Assembly (NCBI GenBank): GCA_903848465.1
Contig: CAINGK010000173.1
Location: 1 to 64,000, forward strand
Direction of reading: 5' to 3'
Source: an uncultured Verrucomicrobiota bacterium
GTDB taxonomy: Bacteria; Verrucomicrobiota; Verrucomicrobiia; Verrucomicrobiales; Verrucomicrobiaceae
DNA length: 64,000 nt
Under the pieces are notes generated by a model. It was not told where the DNA came from, searched no databases, and worked only from the letters and a program-made list of their open reading frames with translations. The first letter of the stretch is position 1. Each line of letters starts with the position of its first letter. This document shows positions 24,191 through 40,295 of this stretch, one piece after another. The translations under genes and the position numbers were made by a program.

Positions 24191-25566
24191 TGAACCTGAT
24201 TTTAATCGTCGATACGGTGCAGTTCTACCGGGATGTGTTCCGCTCCCGGTTGCTGGAGGAGCTGCTCGCCGATGGCAACAATCGCATCACGGTCTATTGC
24301 ACTTTCAATCTGGAGGCCACGACGAAGGAGTTTCAGCATGAGCGCTTGCGCATCGTGCCGCTGAAGCGCAAAAAGCCGACGTGGTTCTCTTCGCTGCTGT
24401 TTTCTTGGGCCAAGGATCTGTGGACGGTGGAGCAGCCAGAGAGCAGTTTCACACAGAAACGCATGGTAGAGGCGCTGGCTAGAAAGCGCAAAAACCTGGA
24501 CTTCCGGCTGGGGCTGGCCCGTCTGGCCCTGCGCATGGGGCTCACGTCCCAGGGGATCATCCGCTTCATGGAGCAGTTCGGGCACGATGCCGATTTCGAG
24601 CGCCTCATTCAGGAGGTGAAACCGAATGCCGTGGTATTTGCCAACATGATTCCCTCCGATCTGGAGTGTCTCAAAGAAGCACGGCGGCACAAGATTCCGC
24701 TCATCCTTGCCGTGGCGAGTTGGGACAATCCGACCTCCAAAGGGCCGCTCACTGTGTTGCCAGACTACACGTTGGTTTGGTCCACGGAGATGAAGCAAGA
24801 AATGGTGCAGTGCCATGGCTTGCCTGCGGAAAGCATGGCGATGGTGGGGGTGATTTATTTTGAGAATTACTTCGCACCGGAGCGGCTGATGACGCGCGAA
24901 AAGTTTTGCGAGCAGCTTGGTGTGTCACCGGAGACGAAGATCATTCAGTTTGCCACGGGGGATAGCGCCATCATCCGCTGCAATCAGCCGTTTGTACGCC
25001 TGCTGCAGCGCATTGTGGCGGAGCAGCCGTTTGACCATCCATGTCATCTGTTGGTGCGGGTGAGCCCGAAGGACATTTACACTTTGTATCAGGAGTTTGA
25101 GGGCAAGCCACACAGCACCATCCAATACCCGCTGGGGGAAGGGGCCGCGTATGGGCGTCACTCATGGATACCCAAGGCGGAGGAAGATTACGAACGCGCC
25201 TCCACGCTGAAGAACACCGACGTGCTGCTCACGAGCGGTTCGTCCATCATTCTCGATGCCTGTTGCTTCGACATTCCAGTGGTCAATCTCGCTTATGACG
25301 CTGGGTTGGATTTGCCCCCCTGGCAGACAGTGACAAGGTTTTTCAAGTTCAGCCATGCCAAACCGGTGGAGCAGGAGGATGCCACCTGGATGGTGCATGA
25401 TGACGAGCAACTCATGGCGGCGCTGCGGGAAGTCATCAAAACCCCGCAGGTGCGCCACCTGCAGCGTCAAAATCTGCTCTCGCGTGTGGTTTGCTACACG
25501 GATGGCAAGACCTGCAAGCGCTGGGTGGATGCCGTGACCGCTTTCGTGCAAGCCAAAGCAAATTAA
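24190..25566 (+). CDS. Putative GT-B glycosyltransferase, unrecognised family
   Basis: A 458-residue soluble protein. The start MNLILIVDTVQFYRDVFRSR and the later stretches VLLTSGSSIILDACCFDIPVVN (short: TSGSSIILDACCF) and YTLVWSTEMKQEMV resemble GT-B enzymes such as those related to CDP-glycerol or UDP-sugar transferases. The TSGSS...D motif is typical of a donor-binding loop. I do not recognise a named family. The ATG at 24190 overlaps the neuB stop (TGATG), and it follows neuB directly, so it may transfer or modify the nonulosonic acid. That is inference from position. Confidence 0.65.
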   Translation: MNLILIVDTVQFYRDVFRSRLLEELLADGNNRITVYCTFNLEATTKEFQHERLRIVPLKRKKPTWFSSLLFSWAKDLWTVEQPESSFTQKRMVEALARKRKNLDFRLGLARLALRMGLTSQGIIRFMEQFGHDADFERLIQEVKPNAVVFANMIPSDLECLKEARRHKIPLILAVASWDNPTSKGPLTVLPDYTLVWSTEMKQEMVQCHGLPAESMAMVGVIYFENYFAPERLMTREKFCEQLGVSPETKIIQFATGDSAIIRCNQPFVRLLQRIVAEQPFDHPCHLLVRVSPKDIYTLYQEFEGKPHSTIQYPLGEGAAYGRHSWIPKAEEDYERASTLKNTDVLLTSGSSIILDACCFDIPVVNLAYDAGLDLPPWQTVTRFFKFSHAKPVEQEDATWMVHDDEQLMAALREVIKTPQVRHLQRQNLLSRVVCYTDGKTCKRWVDAVTAFVQAKAN

Positions 25567-25619: not shown

Positions 25620-26438
25620 TCAAAAGCCATCATTGGCAAGCATCTGGTTCAAAGGCACCAAGCGATTGGGATTACTCTTCATATCGCGCTGGGACGCCCA
25701 GCGGGTGTATTTTTTCTTTAGCGCAGCTACCAGACCTCGGGTGCGGCGGCTGACACAGCGATAGCTGGGTTGCACTTGGATGCCTGCATCACGGCACATC
25801 TGCATGCCCTCGGGCCGCCACATGCCACGACGGATCGCTGAGCCTGCAAGGTAATCGATGGTCGATTCTTCCTGCCGGTGATAGCGTAAAAAATACAGGT
25901 CACGACAACGATCACTGCCAGTGGTGAGGAAGTCCCAGGCCGTCTCTCCAGGCTTCAGCATCTGGCGCAGCGTGTCCGTACGCCAAATGCAGGGATCTGC
26001 TTTGGTGCGGTGTTTGGAATCACGGCCAATGACCCCAAAACGCGGATGGAGGGTCTCGTCATAGCCTGGCTCAAGTGAGCCAAAAGCACGGTAAGACAGT
26101 GCATGCACCTGATGATCGACACAGTACTTAAAATCATCCAGGAACTGCGCTGTGTTCACCGGGCGGGGAATAAACTGGTCCTCCTGAATGTAAACCACGT
26201 ATTCAGTGTCGATGTGCTTGAGCGCTTCGATGAGATTGTCGGCCCACCCACGATCATCCCCGAGAGCCAGTTCTCGCACCAGCCCTTCATCAAGGCGGAA
26301 ATGGTTGGTCATCAGGCGAATCTGAAAGGGACAGTCAGGCCAGTACTTGCGGAAGAAGTGGAAAAAGGGGTGCCACGAATCGTAAAAGGCGTCAAAACTG
26401 GAAACTAGGACGGTCAGGCCTGGAAGGGAGTCAATCAT
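25620..26438 (-). CDS. Glycan-cluster protein, GT-A-like; paralog of the gene at 35814
   Basis: A 272-residue protein with no signal peptide. It starts [20 protein letters not shown], then [32 protein letters not shown] and an acidic [10 protein letters not shown] motif that may act like the DXD of GT-A glycosyltransferases. The same layout recurs in the protein at 35814, so the two are paralogs. I know similar hypothetical proteins occur in O-antigen clusters, and I infer a glycosyltransferase role. It is convergent with the gene at 24190, and its start faces gmd. Confidence 0.65.
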
Positions 26439-26641
26439 GGCGTCTATACGGAGCGAGGTGGGTTGGAAAAAGGGTACAGGCCATATTTGGCGCAGTCAAT
26501 CGTGGAGACTTTCAGGCTGAAGGAAAGGAGATGCGAAGAGAATTTGGCATGCCGGGCCAAAGCGGGTGGATGGTGCTGATGGCCAGTATTCACTTTGAAC
26601 TGGATTTCAAAGATCACCTCTACAAAGGATGGTGCTCAACT

Positions 26642-27652
26642 ATGAAAAGGGCACTCATCACCGGCATCACAGGGCAGGACGGTTCGTATCTGGCCGAACT
26701 GCTGCTGGACAAGGGCTATGAGGTGCATGGCATTATTCGTCGCTCTTCGAGCTTTAACACCGAACGCATTGACCACATTTACCAAGACCCACACATGGTG
26801 GATGGAGTGCGGTTGAAGCTGCATTACGGTGACCTGTCGGACGCAGTGCAGATGGTGAAGCTGTTGTATGAGCTGCAGCCAGATGAGATTTACAATCTAG
26901 GCGCGCAGTCGCATGTGAAAGTGTCGTTTGATATTCCTGAGTACACGGGAGACGTGGATGGACTGGGTACGCTGCGCATTCTGGAGGCCATTCGCGAATC
27001 CGGCCTGATGAAGAAGACGCGCTTCTACCAGGCCTCGTCCTCGGAGATGTTTGGCAAGGTGCAAGAGGTGCCGCAGACGGAGAGCACGCCATTTTGGCCG
27101 CGTTCGCCGTATGGCTGCGCCAAAGTTTTCGCCTACTGGCTGACCGTGAATTATCGCGAGAGCTACGGACTGCATGCTTCCAATGGCATCCTGTTCAATC
27201 ACGAATCACCACGGCGTGGCGAGACGTTTGTGACGCGGAAGATCACGCGAGCTGCGACGCGTATTAAAATGGGCTTACAGGACAAGCTCTACCTTGGAAA
27301 TCTCGACGCAAAGCGCGACTGGGGCTTTGCTGGGGAGTATGTGGAAATGATGTGGCTCATGCTCCAACAGGAGGCTCCGGATGATTTCGTCGTCGCGACC
27401 AATGAGACGCACAGTGTGCGCGAGTTTTGCCAGGAGACGTTTGACCTGCTGGGCCTCGACTGGGAACAGTACGTGGTGCATGACACCCGCTACGAGCGCC
27501 CTGCGGAGGTGGACCTACTCATCGGCAATCCCGAAAAAGCGCGCCGACAACTGGGCTGGGAGCCGAAGGTGCGGTTCAAAGAACTGGTGAAAATAATGGT
27601 GGATGCCGATCTTAAGCTGGCTGAACACGAAGCCAAGGTGAGGAAACTCTGA
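26642..27652 (+). CDS. gmd: GDP-mannose 4,6-dehydratase
   Basis: A 336-residue extended SDR enzyme that turns GDP-D-mannose into GDP-4-keto-6-deoxy-D-mannose. It has [19 protein letters not shown], then [36 protein letters not shown] and the catalytic [12 protein letters not shown] (Tyr-X3-Lys), all hallmarks of Gmd. The ATG at 26642 begins the conserved sequence; the ORF's 37 extra upstream residues are not family-like. It is followed three bases later by fcl, which uses its product. Confidence 0.95.
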
Positions 27653-27655
27653 AGC

Positions 27656-28612
27656 ATGATGAAGCTGTTTATTTCCGGGCATAAAGGCATGGTGGGAGGA
27701 GCACTGGTGCGGCGCTTTCAAAAGGTGCCTGGCGTCACTTTGGTCACGCGCACGCGGCAGGAGCTTGATTTGACGGATCAGGCAGCGGTGGCGGCGTTTT
27801 ACGCAGCGGAAAAGCCAGACGCAGCGATCATCGCGGCTGGCAAGGTGGGTGGGATTCACGCGAACAGCACCTATCCTGCCGAGTTTCTTTATGAGAATCT
27901 TGCCATTGCCAGTCATTGCATCCACAGCGCCTGGACGTCGGGGGTGAAGCGGTTGCTGTTTCTCGGCAGTTCCTGCATCTATCCGAAACTGGCACCGCAG
28001 CCGATCACGGAGGATAGCCTGCTTTCTTCGGCGCTGGAGCCAACCAATGAGGGCTATGCCATCGCCAAAATCGCTGGAGTGAAAATGGCGGAGTACTACC
28101 GCAAGCAGTATGGCGTGGTCTATCACTCGGCGATGCCAACGAACTTATTTGGTCCCGGCGACAACTACCACCTGCAGAATTCGCATGTGATGCCAGCACT
28201 CATTCGGCGATTTCATGAAGCCAAAGAGGCCGGGCAAAGTGAAGTTCAGGCCTGGGGAACCGGCAGTCCGAAACGTGAGTTCCTGCATGTGGATGACCTC
28301 GCGGATGCCTGTGCATTTTTGCTCGATCTGGCAGACCCGCCGGATCTGGTCAATGTGGGCTTTGGCGAAGACATCACCATCCGTGAACTGGTGGAAATGG
28401 TGGCCGAAGTCGTGGGCTATGCGGGGAACATTGTGTGGGATGCATCGAAACCCGATGGCACACCGCGCAAGCTGCTGGATACCTCGCGCCTCAATCAACT
28501 CGGTTGGGAGCCTCGCATCCCGCTCAAAGAAGGACTGGTGCAAACCTACCAGGCCTTTCTGGAGGAACTACGCACCCACCATCTGCGCAGCGAAGGACGG
28601 GGAGTGCGTTAG
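27656..28612 (+). CDS. fcl: GDP-L-fucose synthase
   Basis: A 318-residue SDR enzyme that epimerises and reduces GDP-4-keto-6-deoxymannose to GDP-L-fucose. It has [33 protein letters not shown], the Tyr-X3-Lys motif in GYAIAKIAG and [12 protein letters not shown], all typical of WcaG/Fcl. The start may be 27656 or the next ATG at 27659. It lies three bases after gmd. A second, more divergent Fcl-like protein is at 38336. Confidence 0.94.
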
Positions 28613-28635
28613 AGCGCCGGTAGCTTAGCGGCGCT
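28613..28635. terminator. Hairpin between convergent fcl and FkbM genes
   Basis: AGCGCCG (28613-28619) pairs perfectly with CGGCGCT (28629-28635) around a nine-base loop, directly after the fcl stop. No T run follows on either strand. It may still act as a bidirectional terminator or mRNA-stabilising stem between the convergent genes. Confidence 0.5.
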
Positions 28636-28653
28636 AATGTAACTGAGGTCCGA

Positions 28654-29388
28654 TCAACCTGGAGCAAACAAGCCGTTGGTCCATTTCATCCGACCTTGCG
28701 GAGAAAACACCGTGCCGAACAGGCTCTGAAGATTGTAGCCGAGAGGGTGGAGAAATTGATGAATTTCGTGGAAGCAGCACTGGCCTTCATAAAGAGGAAC
28801 CAGCAGCATTTCGACATAGATCCAATTGACCCATTTCTCTTGGAGAAGCCTTTGCGCGCCTTCCAGAACTTTCAAATCATATCCCTGCGCATCAATTTTC
28901 AGCAAATCGACATGCTGGATATTGCTAGCAGCGCAGTAATCATCAAGGGTGATGACCTCAACTTCCAGCGAGGTTTCCTTGGCCATATACGAGGCTGGTG
29001 CCCATTGTGCAGAGTCGGAACTGGCAGCTAAGAGGCTGTTTGTGACGGACTTAGCGTTGAGATTAAAAGTGCTCGTGCCCCGAGTTTTCCCAACAGCTTT
29101 GGCGTTCACAGTGATGTGCGGATTCTTGGCAGCTTTTTGCCGCAATGTTTCCAGAGCTTGCGGCGTGGGCTCAAAACAATGAATGTCTGAGTCTGAAAAT
29201 TCCGCGAGATACTCGTCAGCAAAGTGTCCCACGTTGGCTCCTACATCGAGACAAAGACGAAACGGCTGGGGCTGGCGGTCTTTGATGTATTTGAGAAAGG
29301 GGCCTTTGATCCCGGTAGCAGTCGTGCCGGAAGTCTTGGACAGTTCATAGCCAATGCCACGAAGCAGTTTGTTGAGGGTGCGTCGCAT
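28654..29388 (-). CDS. FkbM-family methyltransferase
   Basis: A 244-residue SAM-dependent methyltransferase. Motif I is LCLDVGANVGHFADEYL, followed by HCFEPTPQALETLRQ and the FkbM hallmark LLKIDAQGYDLKVLEGA. In glycan clusters these enzymes usually O-methylate sugars; the exact acceptor is unknown. It is the last gene of the minus-strand run that begins at 35431, 53 bases after the partial methyltransferase gene. Confidence 0.88.
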   Translation of the reverse strand: MRRTLNKLLRGIGYELSKTSGTTATGIKGPFLKYIKDRQPQPFRLCLDVGANVGHFADEYLAEFSDSDIHCFEPTPQALETLRQKAAKNPHITVNAKAVGKTRGTSTFNLNAKSVTNSLLAASSDSAQWAPASYMAKETSLEVEVITLDDYCAASNIQHVDLLKIDAQGYDLKVLEGAQRLLQEKWVNWIYVEMLLVPLYEGQCCFHEIHQFLHPLGYNLQSLFGTVFSPQGRMKWTNGLFAPG

Positions 29389-29441
29389 GAAATGAAGTGG
29401 TGCGGGAGGGCGGCAATGGCCTAACAGATGGTCCGAAAAAC

Positions 29442-29894
29442 TCAGAGGGGCGTGACACGGATGATGTCGTGCAGCACTTCAAATCGGCGTTTGGGGGTGA
29501 ACGTTGCGACCAGTTGCTCCGTCTCAGGAATGGTCGGGTAATCCTCGCCGCCATCAAAGAAGCGTGCGTCATCAATGAGCACTGCATGGGTCTTGATCGG
29601 ATGATCAAGCACCTGTTTCATTTCAGCGATGATGGGTGTTTCCAGCGGGCCGTGTGCGGTGCCATCGCCGGAATAGTGGGCGTCGAGCCAGAACAAAGCT
29701 GGAGCTTTGAGTTCCGCGAGAACCTTGCCGATCATCTGGCCGCTGTCTCCGTGCAGCAGGCGGACTTCCTTGTGTCCGGCAAATTTCTTCACCGCAGCAG
29801 CATAGAGGGCGTCATCCAGTTCAATGGAATAGATGATGTCGAAATGGCCGAGAGCGGTCTCGATCATCTCCCCGTGAAACGTGCCGGTCTCCAC
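29442..29894 (-). CDS. SAM-dependent methyltransferase-like protein, start missing or frameshifted
   Basis: From the GTG at 29894 this gives 150 residues starting ETGTFHGEMIETAL, with SIELDDALYAAAVKKF, LLHGDSGQMIGKVL and FWLDAHYSGDG, which match a family of small methyltransferase-like proteins in glycan clusters. The family normally has about 30 more residues. The same frame upstream does encode them (TPPPHVVKEECVLSHSKRYG) but has no ATG, GTG or TTG back into neuC. An ATG at 29992 exists in another frame. Either a frameshift has separated the start from the body, a rare start is used, or there is a sequencing error. Confidence 0.6.
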   Translation of the reverse strand: METGTFHGEMIETALGHFDIIYSIELDDALYAAAVKKFAGHKEVRLLHGDSGQMIGKVLAELKAPALFWLDAHYSGDGTAHGPLETPIIAEMKQVLDHPIKTHAVLIDDARFFDGGEDYPTIPETEQLVATFTPKRRFEVLHDIIRVTPL

Positions 29895-30013: not shown

Positions 30014-31177
30014 CTACTTTGTCCCGCGTGAGACGTAATGCAATTGCTTCTGCGCATAGGGTGTCAGCTTGGCGATCTGCGCGGCGATGCGGGCGGAGAC
30101 TCCCGGTCCGCCATAGAGCGCTGAAATTTCGTAGCGACCATGGGCGAGTTGGCGCTGAGTAGCGGCTTCAATCTCTGGCTGGAGCGGCTCCACTCGCACG
30201 ACGGAGGGCGACCACTCTCGCCCATCCTGACGTGAACCGACGAGGACGACGGGCGTGCCGAAGAAGGAGGTCTCGCGCACAAAGGAGGAGGAATTGCCGA
30301 TGCAGCAGGCCGCGTGGTTGAGCAGCGGGATGTAGATGTCCGGCGGCAGGTTCTTGTAGGCATGCAGCGGGAACTCATGATTGAATTCCCGGAAGCGTCG
30401 GATGGCCTGTGACACCAGATCCGAACCGGCGTCGATGTTTGGCCATAGCAGCACGGTTTGAATGTTCAGGCGGCGCACCGTTTCCAGCACGGCTTCCATC
30501 TGCTCTTCCTGGTGGCCAATGTCGGTGGTCACGGGATGAAATAGCACGAGCAGATAAGGCTGGGAGAAATCAATCGAGGTGCCGACGCCGAGGCGTCCCA
30601 GGACATCCTGTGGCAGATCATTGGAGGCGGCCTGCACGACGTCGCTGGTGGGGCAGCCGAGCGGGAAGACGGTGGCGGGGTCTTCACCCATAGCGACGAT
30701 GTACTCCGCCGCACGCTGCGTGGCAGGGAAGTGATAGTGCGCCAGCTTGGTGATGGCATGCCGGGTGGACTCGTCGATGGAGCCAGAAATTTCACCGCCT
30801 TGCAGGTGGATGAGGCAGATGTTTTGATACACGGCGGCGATGGCGGCGGCCATGGCTTCGTAGCGGTCGCCGATCATCAGCACGAAATCGGGTTTCATCC
30901 GGTTGAACTCCGAAGCGAACTCGATCACTGCTAGGCCGATGGATTTGACCATCGTGATAGGCACGGAACCTTCAAGCTGGAGATAGACCTCGGACTCAAC
31001 GGGAAAGCCATCTGCCTCGACCACGTTGCGCGCGTTGCCGTAGCGGTCTAGCAGCATCGAGCCAGCGCAGATCGTCTGCATATCCACGTCAGGCTCTTGC
31101 TGCAGCGCCTGCATGACGGGCTTCATGCGGGCGTAGTTCGCGCGATTGACCAAGACGACGGCGATTTTCTTTTTCAT
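30014..31177 (-). CDS. neuC: UDP-N-acetylglucosamine 2-epimerase, hydrolysing (NeuC/LegG type)
   Basis: A 387-residue GT-B-fold enzyme that releases UDP and epimerises C2 to give the mannosamine-type precursor of a nonulosonic acid. It starts KIAVVLVNRANYARMKPVM, with FVLMIGDRYEAMAAAIAA, LIHLQGGEISGSIDESTRHA and the CCIGNSSSFVRETSFFGTP donor loop. These are features of NeuC/LegG rather than the non-hydrolysing WecB. It is coupled to neuA by a four-base overlap. Its product should feed the NeuB encoded at 23144 on the other strand. Confidence 0.9.
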   Translation of the reverse strand: MKKKIAVVLVNRANYARMKPVMQALQQEPDVDMQTICAGSMLLDRYGNARNVVEADGFPVESEVYLQLEGSVPITMVKSIGLAVIEFASEFNRMKPDFVLMIGDRYEAMAAAIAAVYQNICLIHLQGGEISGSIDESTRHAITKLAHYHFPATQRAAEYIVAMGEDPATVFPLGCPTSDVVQAASNDLPQDVLGRLGVGTSIDFSQPYLLVLFHPVTTDIGHQEEQMEAVLETVRRLNIQTVLLWPNIDAGSDLVSQAIRRFREFNHEFPLHAYKNLPPDIYIPLLNHAACCIGNSSSFVRETSFFGTPVVLVGSRQDGREWSPSVVRVEPLQPEIEAATQRQLAHGRYEISALYGGPGVSARIAAQIAKLTPYAQKQLHYVSRGTK

Positions 31178-31917
31178 GAAGGTTCTTTTCTGTGGCCGAC
31201 GGGCAGGTGGCGCGTTTCGGCATAATAACGGGCCAGTTCGATTTCTTCTGGCTCGTCGATGTTTAGCAGCAGCCGCTCCACCAGATGCGCGCGTGTGCTG
31301 CTGGTGAAGATGCGCTGCTCATCCATCAAACACGCGCGGGTGAGTGCGTAGCAGGCACCGTTGCGGTAAAACAACGACTCCAGGGACTGGCGTTGCTTCA
31401 CCCCAGCTCCGGCCTCGGCATAAAAGCTGATGACGTTTTCGTCATTCACGCGCAGCACTTTGTGCGGATGAAACTTGGTGTCCACGCGGCTCACGGTCAC
31501 GGCGGAACCGGCATCGGTTTGCGCCAGCAGATCCATCACGCCATTGACGTCCTCCGGCTGGCGGAAGGGGCAGGTGGGTTCCACGATCAAAATCACATCG
31601 TAAGTGACGCCATCAATGCGCTCCATTTCCTGCACGGCATGGCAGAGTGTCTCCACGGCACCAGCGGTGTCTGAACTCAGCTCCGGCGGGCGCAGGAAGG
31701 GCGCATCGAGACCATGCTGGCGGCCTTCAGCGGCATAGCGCTCCGAGTCTGTGGAAATGATGCGGCGGTCGATCCATGAGCAGGCGTCGGCATTCAGCAC
31801 CTCGCCGACAAGCGCGATGAGCGACCGACCTGCGATCTGCTGCATGTTTTTGTCTGGGATGCCCTTGCTGCCGGAACGTGCCGGCACCACGGCGAGGATG
31901 CGACGTCCGTGTTTCAT
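31174..31917 (-). CDS. neuA: CMP-nonulosonic acid synthetase (CMP-NeuNAc/legionaminate cytidylyltransferase)
   Basis: A 247-residue nucleotidyltransferase that activates the nonulosonic acid with CTP. The N-terminal RILAVVPARSGSKGIPDKN is the family's nucleotide-binding signature. RRIISTDSERYA and LIVEPTCPFRQPEDVNG follow. It lacks the extra hydrolase domain seen in some NeuA proteins. It lies between the Gfo/Idh gene (four-base overlap) and neuC (four-base overlap). Sialic versus legionaminic specificity is not resolved. Confidence 0.9.
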   Translation of the reverse strand: MKHGRRILAVVPARSGSKGIPDKNMQQIAGRSLIALVGEVLNADACSWIDRRIISTDSERYAAEGRQHGLDAPFLRPPELSSDTAGAVETLCHAVQEMERIDGVTYDVILIVEPTCPFRQPEDVNGVMDLLAQTDAGSAVTVSRVDTKFHPHKVLRVNDENVISFYAEAGAGVKQRQSLESLFYRNGACYALTRACLMDEQRIFTSSTRAHLVERLLLNIDEPEEIELARYYAETRHLPVGHRKEPS

Positions 31918-32912
31918 GAGGCAAGACGGATGGACTGGCCGCTGGTGGAGCTTTGACGGCAGGCATCCACGACTTCCAGAGCAGCGATGCCATCGGCAAG
32001 CGAGCAGGAGGGCGCGGTGCGGGTGCCACGAATGAGTTCGAGCAGCTCGGATGCAGCGCCCATGAACATCTCATTGCGTTCGCAGGTGAAGGTCTGGTCC
32101 TCCCATTTCAATTCACCGGTGCGGGAGAGTTTCACGGCGTTCTCTTCATAGGACCACATCAGCGTGCCGGTTTCGCCCACGGCGATGATGTGCCGCTGGT
32201 GCGGACGGCCAATGAGGTCGAGATGCAGATTGGCCTTCATGCCGCTGCCGAATGAGGCGATGACATCGACGTTGTCATCCGCGCTGATGTCGAGGTCGGA
32301 AATCTTATCGACCGAGGCCATCACGGATTGGGGTTTGCCGGCAAACCAGAGCAGCAGGTCAAGAAAGTGGCTTTCATCCAGCAGCGCACCGCCGCCTTGT
32401 TCCTTGTTCGCCATGAAGAAGTCCTGGTAGCGCTCCCACGGATGCCAGTCGGCCAGATGCGCGCTCATCACGAAACGGATGTGCCGCACCGCGCCGATCT
32501 CGCCACTTTGCAGGCGGCGGCGGAACTCCGCCACTGGCGGCCACCAGCGGTAGGTGTAGCCCAGCAGCACATGCGCACCTGCGGCTTCCAAGCGGCGGCA
32601 GCTCGCGGCATCAATGCTCAGTGGTTTCTCACAGAGAATCCAGCGACCACCCGCACCTGCGGCGATGATTTGATCAATATGAAAGGCGGGTGGCGAGGCG
32701 ATGACAAAGCCATCGAAGGCGGTGGTTTGCAGCGCCTCGTCCAGATTGCCGAATGTGGATGCCAGGGGACCTTCCGCCGCAGCTTCTTGCTGGCGGTCAG
32801 CACGCGGATCGAAACCGCTCACGGTGCAGCCGAGCGCACGGAGATTGCGTGCATGGCGTTTCCCGGCGGAGCCGAGACCAATGACGAGAAGGTGGAGGGT
32901 GGGGGCGCTCAT
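31914..32912 (-). CDS. Gfo/Idh/MocA-family oxidoreductase in the nonulosonate operon
   Basis: A 332-residue NAD(P)-dependent oxidoreductase with LLVIGLGSAGKRHARNLRAL (Rossmann) and the family motif WILCEKPLSID, where the lysine is the expected catalytic residue. The C-terminal domain follows (GGALLDESHFLDLLLWF). Its place directly before neuA-neuC suggests it modifies a nonulosonic acid or its precursor, as related genes do in bacterial legionaminic acid loci. The substrate is not known. It overlaps both neighbours by four bases. Confidence 0.85.
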   Translation of the reverse strand: MSAPTLHLLVIGLGSAGKRHARNLRALGCTVSGFDPRADRQQEAAAEGPLASTFGNLDEALQTTAFDGFVIASPPAFHIDQIIAAGAGGRWILCEKPLSIDAASCRRLEAAGAHVLLGYTYRWWPPVAEFRRRLQSGEIGAVRHIRFVMSAHLADWHPWERYQDFFMANKEQGGGALLDESHFLDLLLWFAGKPQSVMASVDKISDLDISADDNVDVIASFGSGMKANLHLDLIGRPHQRHIIAVGETGTLMWSYEENAVKLSRTGELKWEDQTFTCERNEMFMGAASELLELIRGTRTAPSCSLADGIAALEVVDACRQSSTSGQSIRLAS

Positions 32913-34465
32913 CGAAGCTGTTCAGTCATATCCACGTAAACGTCCGGCGCGAGGTGATACTCGATCAGGGCGGGTGGGTTGCCAGCGTGCTGCCATTGCT
33001 TGATGGCAGAGTCAAGCGCCGCCGTGTTGGGCGCGTCCCAGGTGGCGAGACCCATGGCCTCCGCAACACGTAGCAGGCGATGGTCTGGCAGCGTCAGCGG
33101 CTGCTGTGACCAGCCCAGTTTGCGCGCACGGCCACGGATGCTGCCGAGGTAGCCGTCTCGCATGACAAGAACGAGGAGGGGCAAATGGTGATCTACAGCG
33201 AGTGAAAGCTCCGCGAGGTTCGCACGAATGCCACCATCGCCAATCCACAGCACGGAAGGCTTCGGCGCACGCGCGAGCGCGGTGCCGAGGGCATAACCCA
33301 CGCCTGCGCCGAGATAGCGGCCATTGGGCGTGCCGGTGAGATCCAGGTGATGCTGCACGCGGAGAAAATGCTCGGCCCAGACGGTGAAGTTGCCGGTATC
33401 GACGATGTGCGCCGCATCAGGCAAGCGGTCTTGGACGACCCGCATGGCCGCGTGTGGTGAATCCTCCCATGGGGCCATGGCCTGAACGAGCTGAGCGTGA
33501 GCAGCGGCGACTGCATCCAGTCCCCAATTCTTATCCTGCAAGGCATCGAAGAGTTCGGCGGCATCGGCATCGCTCAAAGCACTGGCGCGAGTGCCGAAGA
33601 CATTGTCGGGGAAGACGCGTTGCTCCTGCAAACCGGGGGCGTCAAACCAGAGGGTATTGGCGTGGGGTGGAGCAGGGGAAAGCATCTCGCCGCTGCGCAC
33701 ACCGATGCAGATCAGCAGATCGGCCTTTGGCAGCAGCGTTTTCTCTGGCGTGTTCGGCTTGCCATCGCCGGTGCAGATGCCTGCACTCTGCGGCAGATGC
33801 TCTGACAGCGCGCCTTTGGCGGCGGCGGTGGTGAAGACCGGGATTTGCAGTGCGGCAAGCTGTGTGCCCCAAGCACTGCGGGTGGCCCAAGTGCCGACGA
33901 GCAGGGCAGGGCAGGTAGCTGCGGCGAGCTGTTTGCGCCATTCAAGCTGTGGGGCGCTCTGCATACTGCGTGGTGTTTCACGCACGGTATCGGTGCGCGG
34001 CACCAGATCCATGTGGACCGGCCCTGGGCATTCCTGTGTGGCCTCGTGCCACAGGGATTCGATGGCTCCAGCGGTTTCGTTGAAACCGTGGAAACCGCGC
34101 AGGAAGTTGGCGGCCACATCGAGATGATTGAGCCATTTGTGCCTGCGACCGGAGGCTTCATTCGGCGGATAGGCCTCGGAGATCGAGAGGCAGGGATAAC
34201 CCTCGTAGCTGTTGCACAGCAAGCCGGGCGCGAGGTTCATGAAACCGGGGCCTTTGATGGTGATGCACGCTGCGGGCTTTCCTGTTTGCCGTGCATGCGC
34301 TCCGGCCATCAGGGCGGCGACTGCTTCATGGCCGGTTGCGGTAAAGGCACCACCGGCGTTTTCAATCTGCGTGATCAGTTCCAGGCTCGGTCCACCACCG
34401 GGCACGCCGAAGACGCGGCGACCGCCGAGCGTGGTGAACTGCTGCGCGAAGGATTCAAAGGCCAT
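32909..34465 (-). CDS. Thiamine-diphosphate-dependent enzyme, acetolactate synthase-like
   Basis: A 518-residue protein. The N-terminal ThDP domain (VFGVPGGGPSLELI; GHEAVAALMAGAHARQTG holds the expected activating Glu) is followed by a central domain and a C-terminal ThDP domain with IGDGGIRANLAELSLA. The usual Asn-Asn at the end of the ThDP motif reads Arg-Asp (VMRDGYLGS). It is shorter than acetolactate synthase and sits in a glycan operon, so it is unlikely to make branched amino acids. It may act on keto sugars or 2-oxoacids, as the branched-sugar enzyme YerE does. The substrate is unknown. Confidence 0.78.
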   Translation of the reverse strand: MAFESFAQQFTTLGGRRVFGVPGGGPSLELITQIENAGGAFTATGHEAVAALMAGAHARQTGKPAACITIKGPGFMNLAPGLLCNSYEGYPCLSISEAYPPNEASGRRHKWLNHLDVAANFLRGFHGFNETAGAIESLWHEATQECPGPVHMDLVPRTDTVRETPRSMQSAPQLEWRKQLAAATCPALLVGTWATRSAWGTQLAALQIPVFTTAAAKGALSEHLPQSAGICTGDGKPNTPEKTLLPKADLLICIGVRSGEMLSPAPPHANTLWFDAPGLQEQRVFPDNVFGTRASALSDADAAELFDALQDKNWGLDAVAAAHAQLVQAMAPWEDSPHAAMRVVQDRLPDAAHIVDTGNFTVWAEHFLRVQHHLDLTGTPNGRYLGAGVGYALGTALARAPKPSVLWIGDGGIRANLAELSLAVDHHLPLLVLVMRDGYLGSIRGRARKLGWSQQPLTLPDHRLLRVAEAMGLATWDAPNTAALDSAIKQWQHAGNPPALIEYHLAPDVYVDMTEQLR

Positions 34466-34471
34466 GTGGGG

Positions 34472-35431
34472 TCAGGCTTGAGGGGCAAAGAAATCGCGGA
34501 TGCGCCCGGCGGCAAATTTCAGCACGATGTCCACGGCATCCGGGCTGAAGCCGCCGATGTGGGGGGTGATGAGGCAGTTGTCATGCGTCTGCGCATACTG
34601 CCAGACACGGCTGTTTTGGATGGCAGGTTCGCCTTCGAGCACGTCCGTGCCGTAGCCGCCGAGATGCTGGCTTTCCAGCGCCTGCAGCAGGGCGTCTTCA
34701 TCACAGATGGCACCGCGTGAAGTGTTGATGAGGATCGCACCGGGGCGCAGGAGGGCAAACTCACGTGGACCCACGAGGCTGCGTGTTTCATCGCTCAGAT
34801 GGACATGAATGGAAACGGCGTGGGCGTTTTGCAGCAGGGTGTCGAGATCCGTGCGCTCAATCGTCGCTGGCCACTCAGCCTCTGGTAGGTGGGGGTCATG
34901 GCCGATGACGCGCATGCCAAAGGCGGCGGCGTAGCGGGCCATCCAGCCACCGATGCGGCCGCAGCCGATGAGGCCGAGCGTGCGCCCTTTGAGCAGCATG
35001 CCGGGAAACAATTCGCGGTCCCATTTGCCCGCCTCGACGTGGCGATTGGCGGCACGCAGATGGCGTGCGCAGGCCATGAGCAGCATCCAGCTCAACTCGG
35101 CGGCTGGGGTGAGTTCGTTGAGCACCTGCTTTTGTCCTTTGAGCGTGAGCAGCGGGATATTGCGCGCGGCAAGCGCTTTTGAATCAATGTGATCTGCGCC
35201 GGTGGTAGCGGTGGCGATGAGTTTCAGATGCACCGCCGAATCCAGATCCGCCTGGCGCAGTGGCACCTTCATCGAGGCATCGAGAATGGCATGCACCTGG
35301 GGCAGCAGTGGCAGCACGGCGTCGGGTGTCGTCGCTGGGGAGAGCACCTGGAAACCGCTGCCGAGAGTGGTGGTGACGGCGGCTATGCCGGATGTAGGTC
35401 CGAGATACAGGATGGGCAGGACTTCGGGCAT
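34472..35431 (-). CDS. D-isomer-specific 2-hydroxyacid dehydrogenase
   Basis: A 319-residue NAD-dependent dehydrogenase. It has TLGLIGCGRIGGWMARYAA (nucleotide motif), GAILINTSRGAICDEDALLQ and the catalytic-region LITPHIGGFSPDAVD with the His of the active site. The N-terminal catalytic half is shorter than that of SerA and there is no ACT domain. It is the first gene of the run to NeuA/NeuC, six bases before the thiamine-diphosphate enzyme, so the two may act on the same 2-oxoacid. The ORF extends to 35665; ATG at 35431 is where family-like sequence starts. Confidence 0.85.
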   Translation of the reverse strand: MPEVLPILYLGPTSGIAAVTTTLGSGFQVLSPATTPDAVLPLLPQVHAILDASMKVPLRQADLDSAVHLKLIATATTGADHIDSKALAARNIPLLTLKGQKQVLNELTPAAELSWMLLMACARHLRAANRHVEAGKWDRELFPGMLLKGRTLGLIGCGRIGGWMARYAAAFGMRVIGHDPHLPEAEWPATIERTDLDTLLQNAHAVSIHVHLSDETRSLVGPREFALLRPGAILINTSRGAICDEDALLQALESQHLGGYGTDVLEGEPAIQNSRVWQYAQTHDNCLITPHIGGFSPDAVDIVLKFAAGRIRDFFAPQA

Positions 35432-35813
35432 TGTATTAATCCGGCGAGATGAAAGCGACTTGAGCTTTATAGCGTTTTCCGAAACTGATTTCTGAACAGC
35501 GGCCATGAATCCAGGAATTGGACAGGAGGGCGTAGGATGGGTGTGGCGACAGCCCGCCCGTCTGTGAGCGTACGGCAAACACGCTGGCGTACGAACGTCC
35601 TCGCAGTCGGGCGGTTTGGCGAAGTGATAGCTGGAGCATCCGAACATTCTCGACGCCAAACACACCCAACCTACGGTATGAAGCGCGTTGCGATGCGGAG
35701 TTTTCGGGACTGCCTTTCACACGAATGCAGAGGAATGGCCACGAATGGGCGCGAATCGGAGTCAGACTCGGTGCCGTTGGTGTTGCATGATCCGGTGCTG
35801 TCATGATGCCGCA
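35432..35813. other. 382-base intergenic region between two minus-strand operons
   Basis: No convincing gene is present; the ORFs here show no recognisable family and are rich in arginine and serine. It holds the inverted-repeat element at 35531-35675 and loose CGAATG words near 35715-35755. The promoter for the nonulosonate operon on the minus strand should lie in it, but I could not identify a clear -35/-10 pair. Confidence 0.5.
35531..35675. repeat. 145-bp inverted-repeat element, MITE/REP-like
   Basis: The left end cgtaggatgggtgtggcg and the right end cgccaaacacacccaacctacg are imperfect inverted repeats of about 20 bases. Inside, cccgcccg at about 35553 faces cgggcgg at about 35608, so most of the element could fold. 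It encodes nothing. The structure suggests a small non-autonomous mobile element or REP-type repeat; only one copy is in the window. Confidence 0.6.
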
Positions 35814-36632
35814 TTAATCGTTCAGTGGTTTTACCACACCACCGCCGTCACGGGCCATTTTTTCCGAACGTTTGCGCAGCCACTTCCTGAAACTACGCTT
35901 TTTCCAACTGCGGATGAGTTTGGAAAGGATGTCGGAACCCTGCGGCGGGCAGGGGCGTGGCGAGCCGCTGAGTGGCACATTCTCCTTGTTGAAGAACTCC
36001 AGCGTGGAAGGCTTCCAGAACAGCCCTTTGATGGACTCCTGGTAGGTGAGCAGCGCTTTGCCTTCCGGGCCGATGTAGAAATGCCCGCTGTGATCCTCGC
36101 GTGCGAGTTGCTTGGCACGGTTTTCTGCCTGCCAGATGTTCATGCCCGGCGAGTTCGCGACCGCCTGTAAATGAGCAGCACTCCACAGCGTGGCATTGAG
36201 TCCTACGCACGGAGGCTCGGGCAAGATCGCATGCCAGGTGGTGTCAGGAATGGGGGTGCCTAATTTGTGAGAATAATCAATGCCGAGATAGCGACCCTGC
36301 AACTGGCGGAAGCGCTGGACTGCGGACAGCAGGTCCTGCGTGACAACGGGCTGGTTTAAAAAGAAATCATCGAGCAGAAGCAGCAGCACATCTCCCGGCA
36401 CTTGCGGCAGTGCGGCACGCAGGTTGTCGCCCCATTGATGGTCATCACCCACCTTGATGGTATGCACGCGCGGGTCGTCGTAGCTGAGGTGATTGGCGAT
36501 GAGATAAATCGGCGCAGGAATATCCGGCCAGTACTTGAACAGGAAGTGGAAGAAGTACGGCCAGGTGTCCGAATAGAAATCGCACGAGGGCACGACAAGC
36601 GTGAAGGCGCTGTCCGGCTGGTTGTCCGTCAT
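35814..36632 (-). CDS. Glycan-cluster protein, GT-A-like; paralog of the gene at 25620
   Basis: A 272-residue protein starting FTLVVPSCDFYSDTWPYFFH, then FKYWPDIPAPIYLIANH, GDDHQWGDNLRAAL and an acidic LLLLDDFFL motif that resembles a DXD metal site. The order and spacing match the protein at 25620, which has the same length. The C-terminus is basic (RSWKKRSFRKWLRKRSEK) and could bind the membrane. A glycosyltransferase role is inferred from motif and context. It is the last gene of the run from 44181, 15 bases after the TylF-like gene. Confidence 0.65.
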   Translation of the reverse strand: MTDNQPDSAFTLVVPSCDFYSDTWPYFFHFLFKYWPDIPAPIYLIANHLSYDDPRVHTIKVGDDHQWGDNLRAALPQVPGDVLLLLLDDFFLNQPVVTQDLLSAVQRFRQLQGRYLGIDYSHKLGTPIPDTTWHAILPEPPCVGLNATLWSAAHLQAVANSPGMNIWQAENRAKQLAREDHSGHFYIGPEGKALLTYQESIKGLFWKPSTLEFFNKENVPLSGSPRPCPPQGSDILSKLIRSWKKRSFRKWLRKRSEKMARDGGGVVKPLND

Positions 36633-36647: not shown

Positions 36648-37403
36648 TTACTCAATGACGCAGTAGCTCGTGCGCGAGGTGTAGGGCAGACGGCGTAGGG
36701 AGATGTTTCCCAGGCCGAGTGCTTCCATGACCGCCAGCGTTTCACCGGGGGTGGCGTGCTCGTTGAGTTCATCGAAGCCGAGGACGCTGCCCTTGGTCAG
36801 GCGCGGCTTGAGCAGTTCGAGGCACTTCTTGGTTGGCGCGTAAAGATCGAGGTCGAAGTAAGCCAGCGCTACGATGGTCTCCTGATGCTGCTCAAGATAG
36901 ACGGGCAGTGTTTCGCAGACATCGCCCTGCACGAGTTCGAACTTGCGGATGTGGCCGAGGGGATTTTCCGCTTCATGGAATTCCATGATCTTGGTGAGGT
37001 ACTCCTTGTAGCCTTCGGTGACGGAGTAGCCGCCCTGGCGCATGATGCCGCCGTCGCCATCCTGGTTCGCGGTGTGCGGGAAACCTTCAAAGGTGTCAAA
37101 GGCGATGATCTTGCGATGACGGTGGAAGGGTTCGTAGATTCCACGCAGCGCTGCAAAGGTGGCGATATTCTGGCCCCAGCGGGTGCCGAACTCCATGATC
37201 ACACCGGGAAGCTCGACGATCTTTTGGTACATGAAGTCCATGAACTTGAGCCGCGCCCAGGTCTTGGAACTGAGGAAGAGGCCCATGTTGTCCATGCGCT
37301 CTTCGGCTGGAATGGGGCATTGCTCGATGAGACTGGTCATCGCCTTGCGGCGTTCACGCTCATCGGCGGAGGCAAAATTGACGACGTTGAATGAATCACT
37401 CAT
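36648..37403 (-). CDS. TylF/MycF-like SAM-dependent O-methyltransferase
   Basis: A 251-residue protein with GVIMEFGTRWGQNIATFAAL (SAM-binding), KIIAFDTFEGFPHTANQDGD and the metal-site-like LAYFDLDLYAPTKKCLELL plus GSVLGFDELN. These fit the TylF/MycF group of metal-dependent sugar O-methyltransferases. A sugar hydroxyl of the glycan is the likely acceptor. Proteins like it are sometimes mislabelled as carnitine CoA-transferase. It starts nine bases after the next methyltransferase gene in the operon. Confidence 0.8.
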   Translation of the reverse strand: MSDSFNVVNFASADERERRKAMTSLIEQCPIPAEERMDNMGLFLSSKTWARLKFMDFMYQKIVELPGVIMEFGTRWGQNIATFAALRGIYEPFHRHRKIIAFDTFEGFPHTANQDGDGGIMRQGGYSVTEGYKEYLTKIMEFHEAENPLGHIRKFELVQGDVCETLPVYLEQHQETIVALAYFDLDLYAPTKKCLELLKPRLTKGSVLGFDELNEHATPGETLAVMEALGLGNISLRRLPYTSRTSYCVIE

Positions 37404-37412
37404 GAGGTGGTC

Positions 37413-38339
37413 TTAGCGGTTGGGGGACCAAACGATGAGCGAATGCCCTTCGATGAAGAAGCTGCCGCTGTGGACACGCTGCTTGCGGTGGATGGTGAGC
37501 TTGCCTTCGCGTTCGAGTTCTTCGAGACGCGGCAGGTAGCCTTTGAGGTAGTTGCGCTTGTTGGAGTACAAGACGGAGAGCTGGTCGTGCAGGTCGTCTT
37601 TCTCCAGCACTTCGTTGATCGGCTCAAAGTGGACCACAAGCTCGGGCTTCTTCTTCAGCATGAACTGGATGAAGGCCTCATGGCGGGGACCCACCTGCTC
37701 CAGCGCAGCCACACTGTAGGCGACGCTGTTGGGCAGGAACTCCAGCGTTTCATCGGGATGATAGAAGTCGAAGTTGCGACCTTCGAGATTCGGATCAATG
37801 CCGCTCTCGGCCATGCCGTTGAGGATCTTTTGCGAGGCGGTGGTCCAGTCTAGGCCGACGAGATGCGCGGTGGGGTTGATCTTGCGCGCGCGCAGCAGGT
37901 GGTAGCCGGGGCCACAGCCAAATTCATAGATGCCAGCCGCGTCCTTCATGTAACGCTCCATGGCGTATTCGACGAGGAGGCAGATGATGCGGTAGTCGAA
38001 AGATTCCGAAACCGGACGCACCCAGCGCCTGCGCCAGCGCACGATGGGGTGCTTGCCAAAGTAGAGGGGCACAGCGGCGTCGGGGTTGCCGGTTTTGCAG
38101 AAGATGTCGAAGTTCTCGCCCCAGCCACGTTCCCAGTCGCCGATGCGGTGCTCGCCAGCGACCTTGAGTTCGGGGTTCACCAGCGCACGCACGGCTTCCA
38201 GGATGTACTGGTCGCGCTCCTCGGGGGTGATCTCGGTGAAGCGCAGGTCGAATTCGGCGAGGCGCTTCGTGAGGCGCTCGCTGATCGGCTCGCCCATGAT
38301 GGCTTCGAGGTCGGCGGGCTGGATGGTTTGGACGGTCAT
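37413..38339 (-). CDS. SAM-dependent methyltransferase
   Basis: A 308-residue protein with an N-terminal helical region (TKRLAEFDLRFTEITPEERD) and a methyltransferase core with motif I YEFGCGPGYHLLRAR and HLVGLDWTTASQKIL. It has a C-terminal stretch SGSFFIEGHSLIVWSPN. Part of the core (FLPNSVAYSVAALEQVG) replaces the usual motif IV, so it may be a methyltransferase of an unassigned subgroup. The ATG at 38339 overlaps the stop of the Fcl-like gene by four bases. The ORF's longer 5' part (to 38612) lies in that gene and is not coding. Confidence 0.75.
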   Translation of the reverse strand: MTVQTIQPADLEAIMGEPISERLTKRLAEFDLRFTEITPEERDQYILEAVRALVNPELKVAGEHRIGDWERGWGENFDIFCKTGNPDAAVPLYFGKHPIVRWRRRWVRPVSESFDYRIICLLVEYAMERYMKDAAGIYEFGCGPGYHLLRARKINPTAHLVGLDWTTASQKILNGMAESGIDPNLEGRNFDFYHPDETLEFLPNSVAYSVAALEQVGPRHEAFIQFMLKKKPELVVHFEPINEVLEKDDLHDQLSVLYSNKRNYLKGYLPRLEELEREGKLTIHRKQRVHSGSFFIEGHSLIVWSPNR

Positions 38340-39259
38340 TGGCGGATGTTGGGATAGTTGGCCTTGAACCAGGCGACGCTTTTTTCGATGCCTGCGTCGA
38401 GCGGGGTGAACTGGAAATCGGGGAGGTAGGTGCTGAGCTTGGTGGTATCTGACGGCTTGCGGAACTGGCCGTCGGGCTTGGTGGAGTCCCACACGATTTT
38501 GCCGGTGAACTCCATCTTGTCGGCCACGATTTCGACGAGTTCCTTGATGCTGCGCTCGATGCCGGAGGAGAAGATGATGGCTTCCTCTTCGTGGTAATTT
38601 TCCAAGGCCCAAAGCGAGAGCCGGGCGACGTCATCAACATAGACAAACTCGCGCAGCGGTGTGCCGCTGCCCCAGACTGGCAGGTCAGCGCCCTCTTGCT
38701 GGCGCAGGAAGCAGCGGTGGATGAGGGATGGGATCACATGCCCGCCCTCCATGGCGAAGTCATCGCAGGGGCCGTACATGTTGGTGGGAATGGCCACGAT
38801 GAAGTCGCAATTCCACTCTTTGCGGTAGGCGGCGCTTTGCACCTCCAGCATGCGCTTGGCGTAGGCGTAGCCGAAATTGGAGGGATGCGGTGCGCCGTTG
38901 TGCAGGTTCTTCTCCTTGAGCGGGTATTCCGTCTTGTCTGGAAACACGCAGGTGGACATGAACGAGATCAGGCGCTTTACGCCGGTCTGGCGCGCGGCCT
39001 CCAGCACGTTGAGATTGATCAGGATGTTGTGCCGGAAGTACTCGCCGGAGTGGATGCTGTTGCTGCCGATGCCGCCCACGACGGCGGCGCAGTGGATGAC
39101 GTACTCCGGTTTGTGAGTGCGGAAGAGCGCGGCGGTGGCTTCAAAGCTCGTGAGGTCTGCATCCTCCCGCGTCAGATACACCACCCCATCTTCGCCTAGC
39201 AGACGGCGAAGCGACGAACCCAACATGCCGGCGCTGCCGGTGACGAGATAACGAGCCAT
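38336..39259 (-). CDS. GDP-L-fucose synthase-like SDR enzyme (second copy)
   Basis: A 307-residue extended SDR with YLVTGSAGMLGSSLRRLLGE, then FMSTCVFPDKTEYPLKE, the Tyr-X3-Lys in GYAYAKRMLEVQ and IPTNMYGPCDDF. The layout is that of Fcl (WcaG), but it differs clearly from the fcl product at 27656 in this window. It may reduce another GDP-4-keto-6-deoxy sugar, or be a second fucose synthase. It lies between an epimerase gene (seven bases) and a methyltransferase gene (four-base overlap). Confidence 0.82.
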   Translation of the reverse strand: MARYLVTGSAGMLGSSLRRLLGEDGVVYLTREDADLTSFEATAALFRTHKPEYVIHCAAVVGGIGSNSIHSGEYFRHNILINLNVLEAARQTGVKRLISFMSTCVFPDKTEYPLKEKNLHNGAPHPSNFGYAYAKRMLEVQSAAYRKEWNCDFIVAIPTNMYGPCDDFAMEGGHVIPSLIHRCFLRQQEGADLPVWGSGTPLREFVYVDDVARLSLWALENYHEEEAIIFSSGIERSIKELVEIVADKMEFTGKIVWDSTKPDGQFRKPSDTTKLSTYLPDFQFTPLDAGIEKSVAWFKANYPNIRQ

Positions 39260-39266
39260 AGATCAA

Positions 39267-40295
39267 TCACGCATTCGCCGTTGGTTTCCGGCGGTGCCAT
39301 GCGATGGTTCTACGAAGTCCCTCGTCAAAGTCAACGTATTTGAGGGGGCCGAACTCCCGCTCATACAGCCCCATGTCGATGCTCACTTCAGCAGGTGCGC
39401 CTTCAAGGGGGAGGGCGGTCTCTGGCAGGCGCACAGGCACGCCGAGTTGCGCGCCGATTTTCTCGGCGACTTCGCGGATGAGCAGCACGCCACGGCCACC
39501 GACGTTGTAAATTGGTTCACGGCCTTTGAGCACGGCACGCAACATGATGCGCACCGCGTCCGGCGCGTAGCAGTAGATGCGGCGGGCTTCGCCATGGTCC
39601 ATCATGGCAATCTCGCCCTGGTGGAGCGCTTTTTCGATGAAGGTGTAGAGCACCCGGCGGTCATGCGCATGCGCTCCGGGGCCGTAGGCGAGGGCCAGAC
39701 GGGCGGACACGGCCTGGATGCCACCGGCGCGTGCGGCATTGCACGCGGCCTCACCACAGCGCTTGCCTTCGATGTAGCAGGCACGCGGATGGGTGGTGTT
39801 GGTGGTGCCGATGGAGTCTTCTCGGTTTGGGTCACCGGCAGGCAGGCCGACGTAGAGTTCGCTGGTGCTGACAAACAGGAAGCGTCCGCCGGTGGGGACT
39901 TTCTCCAGCAGATCCAGCGTGGCTTCGGTGTTGAGGCGGATGGTTTTACCGGGGTTTTCCAGGAATCGTCCGGGCTGGCCGTAACCGGCGGCATGCAGGA
40001 TGACCTCCGCCTGGTCGAGGCTGCGGCGAAAGGCGGGATCGGTCAGATCGCCACGACGAATGGAAATCTGCGGATGGTCGAGCATCTCGGCGATCACGCC
40101 CGTCACCGGGCTTTGAAACGTGACCTGCAGGCGCAGCTTGGAGCCTTCGTCGATCAAACGGCGAAACGCGGCAGCCATGTGAATGCCCACGACACCCGAG
40201 GCACCGGTGAGCAGCACGCGGCAGTCTTGCAAAGGTTCGCGGGGCACACCGTCGAGGGCGATGCCGGCATCGGCGTGGAAATAAGATTCAGACAT
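39267..40295 (-). CDS. NAD-dependent epimerase/dehydratase
   Basis: A 342-residue extended SDR with VLLTGASGVVGIHMAAAFRR (NAD motif), VILHAAGYGQPGRFL, FVSTSELYVGLPAG and a Tyr-X3-Lys in ACYIEGKRCGEAA. The stretch IYNVGGRGVLLIREVAEKIG is typical of the C-terminal sugar-binding part. It resembles UDP-glucuronate decarboxylase-like enzymes by layout, but no specific substrate can be set. ATG at 40295 is used; it overlaps the transketolase C-half gene by eight bases. Confidence 0.8.
   Translation of the reverse strand: MSESYFHADAGIALDGVPREPLQDCRVLLTGASGVVGIHMAAAFRRLIDEGSKLRLQVTFQSPVTGVIAEMLDHPQISIRRGDLTDPAFRRSLDQAEVILHAAGYGQPGRFLENPGKTIRLNTEATLDLLEKVPTGGRFLFVSTSELYVGLPAGDPNREDSIGTTNTTHPRACYIEGKRCGEAACNAARAGGIQAVSARLALAYGPGAHAHDRRVLYTFIEKALHQGEIAMMDHGEARRIYCYAPDAVRIMLRAVLKGREPIYNVGGRGVLLIREVAEKIGAQLGVPVRLPETALPLEGAPAEVSIDMGLYEREFGPLKYVDFDEGLRRTIAWHRRKPTANA

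Follow-up and report, generated by a model that had tools for sequence, protein, structure and literature searches.

The analysed window is a stretch of 64 000 nt from an uncultured Verrucomicrobiota bacterium (contig CAINGK010000173.1, positions 1–64 000). At positions 30014–35431 it carries a block of five genes on the minus strand. The block begins with a D-2-hydroxyacid dehydrogenase gene (HADH; 34472–35431, 319 aa, PF02826/PF00389), which is followed by genes for a ThDP enzyme of the acetolactate-synthase superfamily (32909–34465, 518 aa, PF02775/PF02776/PF00205), a distantly PtmF-like Gfo/Idh/MocA oxidoreductase (Gfo; 31914–32912, 332 aa, PF01408/PF22725/PF02894), a NeuA-like CMP-nonulosonate cytidylyltransferase (31174–31917, 247 aa, PF02348) and the hydrolysing UDP-GlcNAc 2-epimerase NeuC (30014–31177, 387 aa, above the TIGR03568 cut-off). 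The initial annotation had described these genes as joined by four-base overlaps or a six-base gap, and both the ORF list and the sequence confirmed this, with spacings of +6, −4, −4 and −4 nt in the order given. All five gene names were also borne out by Pfam domains (2-Hacid_dh and 2-Hacid_dh_C; TPP_enzyme_N, _M and _C; GFO_IDH_MocA; CTP_transf_3; Epimerase_2).

The block is the end of a same-strand run of 14 genes that starts with a GT61 gene at 44181. The nine upstream genes of the run are spaced by −14 to +15 nt, and in the window genome the run is interrupted by a gap of 382 nt between HADH and orf35814 (35814–36632, minus strand), which encodes a conserved protein without a Pfam match. 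This gene adjoins HADH directly in relatives and is kept in every relative whose contig extends there. The genes upstream of it (36648–44181, minus strand) encode a TylF-like methyltransferase, a methyltransferase-like protein, two NAD-dependent epimerase/dehydratases, the C and N halves of a split transketolase, a GT9 and a GT61 protein, and their order is preserved in relatives. The five genes appear to form the end of a surface-glycan operon, and the whole run belongs to a cluster for a surface glycan. With the split transketolase (40288–41984, N and C halves), this one cluster encodes a second ThDP enzyme; a sugar-branching role has been proposed for split transketolases in some antibiotics (PMC12247030). 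The gap between orf35814 and HADH holds a dispersed repeat of ∼145 bp (35531–35676) with at least 46 matches genome-wide, several of them at contig ends, and for one strand of it (153 nt) a branched hairpin of −77 kcal/mol is predicted. The repeat occupies the same site in one related contig (L003) and is absent from four others (L004–L007), where orf35814 and HADH almost touch.

The only NeuB gene of the genome lies on the opposite strand, 6 kb from the block (23144–24190, plus strand, PF03102 and SAF), and its product is presumed to be the partner of the block's NeuA and NeuC. Translationally coupled to it is a gene for a glycosyltransferase-like protein (24187–25566, plus strand; Glyphos_transf, weak BFO_1060 match) that stays adjacent to NeuB in L003, L005 and L006 and is a candidate nonulosonate transferase. 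Genes for a nucleotide-sugar dehydrogenase and a GalE/TviC-like epimerase (20893–23129, plus strand) are syntenic with NeuB. A SAM methyltransferase gene was found directly 3′ of NeuC in all six relatives (L003–L005, L006:14458–15348, L007 and L082), the other copies being 80–94% identical to that of L006. The window lacks this gene and instead has a segment of G+C ∼0.55 (∼25620–29894) between NeuC and the NeuB partner gene, encoding a GDP-mannose 4,6-dehydratase (GMD), a GDP-fucose synthase and an FkbM methyltransferase. Since the window and its relatives differ in gene content after NeuC, the finished sugar may differ by species.

A genome_contigs scan returned five relatives of the ThDP enzyme (L003–L007, 77–87% identity), all on Verrucomicrobia-titled MAG contigs, and each contig had all five genes of the block in unchanged order. 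L003, L005 and L006 continue on the opposite strand with the NeuB partner gene, NeuB, GalE and the gene for the nucleotide-sugar dehydrogenase; the L004 contig stops before this region, and NeuB was not found in the 7 kb beyond NeuC that L007 covers. The record titles of L004 and L005 name Akkermansia muciniphila MAGs. As these sequences also occur in genomes G492 and G493, which are placed in the window's genus, the titles are probably wrong.

In whole-genome searches, orthologs of ThDP, HADH and Gfo were found in an identical set of 7 out of 68 family genomes, and NeuA and NeuC at an identity of at least 82% were found in the same seven. The ThDP, Gfo, NeuA and NeuC genes were contiguous in every one of them, with ThDP and Gfo translationally coupled to NeuA and NeuC, while HADH adjoined ThDP in five and was separated from it by inserts of ∼3.6 kb in G477 (L003) and ∼2.5 kb in G500 (L082). 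All five genes were under purifying selection (dN/dS 0.05–0.16). The initial annotation had made its proposal depend on conserved linkage in other genomes, and the linkage held wherever the ThDP gene was found, in seven genomes. As these all belong to one genus (48 genomes), descent explains part of it, and the informative part is the sporadic but all-together presence of the genes. The insert in L003 (6380–10000) contains part of a second HADH copy that matches residues 198–318 of the window protein at 86% identity, and that in L082 (5430–7985) contains a small ORF that is GIY-YIG-like by eye.

No further ortholog was detected in samples of 286 genomes of the class and 241 of the phylum, which yielded only generic matches of 28–29%, and no relative of the ThDP enzyme was found in plasmids, phages or viral contigs. 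Beyond the phylum, genome coverage consisted of the single genome_contigs scan, which detects close relatives. The surroundings of plasmid matches to Gfo and NeuA were different sugar or nonulosonate clusters without an annotated ThDP gene nearby (the Ensifer match is unannotated).

Sister clusters in three genomes (G465, G473 and G488) encode a NeuB 84–85% identical to that of the window and a NeuA of 41–42% identity, together with relatives of orf35814 and of the glycosyltransferases. At the cut-offs used, the whole genomes of all three had no orthologs of HADH, ThDP or Gfo. Because NeuB is kept there without these three genes, they are an add-on for which NeuB is not specialised, and from their distribution they look like an added tailoring cassette. 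The sister clusters (L078:3708–17866, L080 and L083) also contain a second nonulosonate-like module, with genes for a NeuC, a methyltransferase, a NeuA, a Gfo, a NeuB-cupin fusion, an HAD phosphatase and an AMP-binding ligase.

We compared the NeuA, NeuB and NeuC proteins with curated models and solved structures. NeuC passed the NeuC_NnaA equivalog TIGR03568 (350 bits, cut-off 236), as the sole block protein above a curated cut-off, and its nearest solved structure was the epimerase domain of human GNE (271 bits), with 176 bits to the GDP/UDP-diNAcBac 2-epimerase. NeuB matched TIGR03569 best (308 bits, cut-off 400) and had Neisseria meningitidis NeuB as its nearest solved structure (192 bits), with 145 bits to a pseudaminic acid synthase. 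The NeuA-like protein matched the NCBIfam model PseF at 113 bits, below the cut-off of 206, and its nearest solved structure was the CMP-Neu5Ac synthetase 1eyr. No LegC aminotransferase above the cut-off was found genome-wide (best match 240 bits, cut-off 420), and the LegB-like matches in the cluster were far below cut-off. Given the similarities of NeuC and NeuB to these solved structures and the lack of a LegC above its cut-off, a legionaminic or pseudaminic route in this genome is unlikely and the product is probably a Neu-type sugar rather than a 9-deoxy sugar of the Leg/Pse type.

HADH has both Pfam domains of its family and, in alignment with 1wwk, the NTSRG, EGEP and TPHIGG motifs that represent the Arg/Glu/His motifs of D-2-hydroxyacid dehydrogenases. 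It is phosphoglycerate/glycerate dehydrogenase-like and falls outside any curated equivalog. Compared with Gfo proteins from other nonulosonate clusters, Gfo shows 29–33% identity, and it has a GGGxL..xSHxLD region in common with those encoded beside NeuA. It adjoins NeuA as in ptm clusters, though with an identity to the PtmF type of only 29–30%.

The ThDP enzyme fits no curated NCBIfam family (best 124 bits, cut-off 500) and its best match among the acetolactate synthase and acetohydroxyacid synthase (AHAS) models scored 115 bits (cut-off 509). Its three TPP_enzyme domains, the catalytic Glu47 and the GDG410-411 metal-binding motif are intact, and alignment with the genome's own AHAS showed that the Arg of the G-x-R motif is kept (R257). 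The Phe and Gln (FQE motif) and the Met and Trp (GMVRQW motif) of the AHAS acceptor pocket are replaced by K110, W111, S442 and R446, which are the same in all seven orthologs (an alignment of six sequences plus the seventh). These AHAS positions shape the choice of acceptor, and their replacement makes a larger or anionic acceptor likely. On these sequence features, we consider the protein to be a new subfamily within the acetolactate-synthase superfamily. An AlphaFold2 prediction based on six almost identical sequences reached a mean pLDDT of 43.8, too low for use.

Could this enzyme and HADH simply be central-metabolism enzymes, serving acetolactate synthesis and the serine pathway, that lie here by chance? 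Their family-level similarity to acetolactate synthase and phosphoglycerate dehydrogenase would fit such a reading. The genome, however, has a separate AHAS of 575 aa (L002), the operon enzyme is shorter and far below every curated acetolactate synthase model, its pocket residues are changed and invariant, and it co-occurs exactly with the sugar genes. The separate AHAS and the replaced acceptor pocket rule out a housekeeping acetolactate synthase, so that ordinary acetolactate synthase activity, which the initial annotation had named as the outcome that would count against it, is unlikely, and the chance reading as a whole is very improbable.

The closest published system is sfmABCDE of Shewanella oneidensis, a flagellin-modification operon with a NeuB-like protein, a ThDP (IlvB-like) enzyme and an oxidoreductase; the flagellin glycan that depends on it contains a putative nonulosonic acid and an additional moiety of 236–264 Da (PMC3765264). 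The window cluster has the same three kinds of protein. In the sfm operon, in contrast, the oxidoreductase is an SDR, a methyltransferase and an ATP-grasp protein are present, and HADH, Gfo, NeuA and NeuC are missing; SfmB has 581 aa against 518 aa for the window enzyme, and the likeness is one of gene content. In LPS, YerE-like ThDP enzymes introduce the branches of yersiniose and erwiniose by acting on keto sugars: YerE takes an acetaldehyde unit from pyruvate and adds it to a CDP-4-keto sugar, and the donors of ErwE are longer hydroxylated 2-keto acids (PMC12247030). By description, they resemble the window enzyme in belonging to the decarboxylase/AHAS superfamily and in lying in surface-polysaccharide clusters. 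The window enzyme, unlike YerE, is linked to NeuA and NeuC, and the annotated genes of its cluster include none for a CDP-3,6-dideoxy-4-keto sugar (CDP-3,6-dideoxyhexose) of the YerE kind.

Clusters for CMP-legionaminic acid (leg/ptm) resemble the window in having NeuA, NeuB and NeuC homologs and a Gfo (PtmF-like) gene that overlaps NeuA. The block differs from them in having ThDP and HADH and in lacking PtmE and PtmA, and the window's NeuC and NeuB are only 28–35% identical to the Leg-type proteins. A cluster of the leg/ptm type does occur in a genome of the same genus (G486, L087), where ORFs for an acyltransferase, a PtmF-like Gfo, NeuA, an SDR, NeuB, NeuC, a NeuD-like and a PtmE-like protein were identified by eye, those for NeuA, NeuB, NeuC and Gfo also by BLAST. 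With the Neu5Ac (NeuABC) pathway the window shares a NeuC above the equivalog cut-off, one NeuB and one NeuA-like protein, but its NeuB and NeuA are below the equivalog cut-offs, NeuB is on the opposite strand and HADH, ThDP and Gfo are added. In a literature search that covered few subscription papers, we found neither a published description of this gene set nor a published example of carbon-carbon tailoring of a sialic-acid-type sugar.

Taken together, the conserved gene set suggests a previously undescribed kind of surface sugar. In our preferred reading, to which we give a probability of about 0.35, the operon and NeuB produce a sialic-acid-type nonulosonic acid, activated with CMP, into which the HADH/ThDP/Gfo cassette introduces a carbon-carbon modification. 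NeuC would hydrolyse UDP-GlcNAc, or a modified form of it, to a ManNAc-type sugar, NeuB would join this with PEP, and NeuA would use CTP to give the activated nonulosonate. Gfo would oxidize a sugar hydroxyl to a ketone (or later reduce the product), HADH would interconvert a 2-hydroxy acid and the 2-keto acid donor, and the ThDP enzyme, acting like YerE and ErwE, would decarboxylate the keto acid and attach the resulting acyl carbanion to the keto sugar. The outcome would be a sugar, probably the nonulosonate or its precursor, with a branched or extended carbon skeleton. Here we infer the substrates, the order of the steps and the nonulosonate as the modified sugar. The reading draws on the exact co-occurrence and adjacency of the genes in 7 of the 68 family genomes, their low dN/dS, the 4-nt overlaps of ThDP, Gfo, NeuA and NeuC, the Neu-type NeuC and NeuB, the missing LegC, the separate AHAS and the invariant changed pocket, as well as on YerE-like branching of LPS keto sugars (PMC12247030) and the Shewanella glycan operon that combines ThDP and NeuB-like proteins (PMC3765264). 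Against it stand the 85% identical NeuB of sister clusters without the cassette, the other sugar-tailoring genes of the cluster including the split transketolase, the missing annotation of YerE-type CDP-deoxysugar genes and the restriction of all linked genomes to one genus. That the product is a carbon-branched or chain-extended nonulosonic acid, made by a dedicated set of ThDP carboligase, HADH and Gfo and activated by a matched CMP synthetase, is rather doubtful.

The first two objections, on NeuB and on the other tailoring genes, lend weight to a different division of labour, in which the HADH/ThDP/Gfo cassette, possibly together with the split transketolase, makes a separate component of the glycan, a branched or deoxy sugar, while NeuC, NeuA and NeuB make an ordinary nonulosonic acid and merely share the transcript. 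Whatever the cassette does, a second unusual sugar is likely, given the split transketolase, the two NAD-dependent sugar enzymes and the methyltransferases of the run, and it could be the one that the cassette serves. What this leaves unaccounted for is that ThDP and Gfo are translationally coupled to NeuA and NeuC in each of the seven genomes, at a locus where the HADH junction tolerates inserts, and that Gfo recurs next to NeuA in other nonulosonate clusters. With an unspecialised NeuB and a likely second sugar, our estimate for nonulosonate tailoring is kept low, and a separate sugar is almost as likely, if short of an even chance. PtmF in Campylobacter is thought to help make an amino-sugar precursor, and the adjacency of Gfo and NeuA as in ptm clusters and the resemblance of HADH to phosphoglycerate and glycerate dehydrogenases would also suit a pathway without any carbon-carbon change, where Gfo helps to make such a precursor and a small acid or aldehyde provided by HADH and the ThDP enzyme ends up as an acyl or side group, for example glyceroyl or lactyl. 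As the conserved block lacks an acyl-CoA ligase, an N-acyltransferase, PtmE and PtmA, and ThDP carboligases normally form carbon-carbon bonds, we regard this as unlikely.

The proposal of the initial annotation, an undescribed change to a nonulosonate, is partly supported: the linkage is conserved and such a change is plausible, whereas its assignment to the nonulosonate is weakened by the other sugar genes of the cluster, which HADH, ThDP and Gfo could serve, and by the presence of the same NeuB in sister clusters without them. The block adds to the known CMP-nonulosonate operons, and new chemistry is possible. The known diversity of nonulosonic acids consists mostly of stereochemistry and acyl groups, and a ThDP carbon-joining enzyme beside CMP-nonulosonate genes would, if the preferred reading is true, represent another axis of variation. 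It would also provide a new sugar-acting carboligase, be testable in non-pathogenic bacteria and give a lead on the unexplained ThDP enzyme of Shewanella flagellin glycosylation. Elsewhere in the window, positions 4183–6789 encode a cyanophycin synthetase that scores above its curated cut-off (953 against 850 bits).
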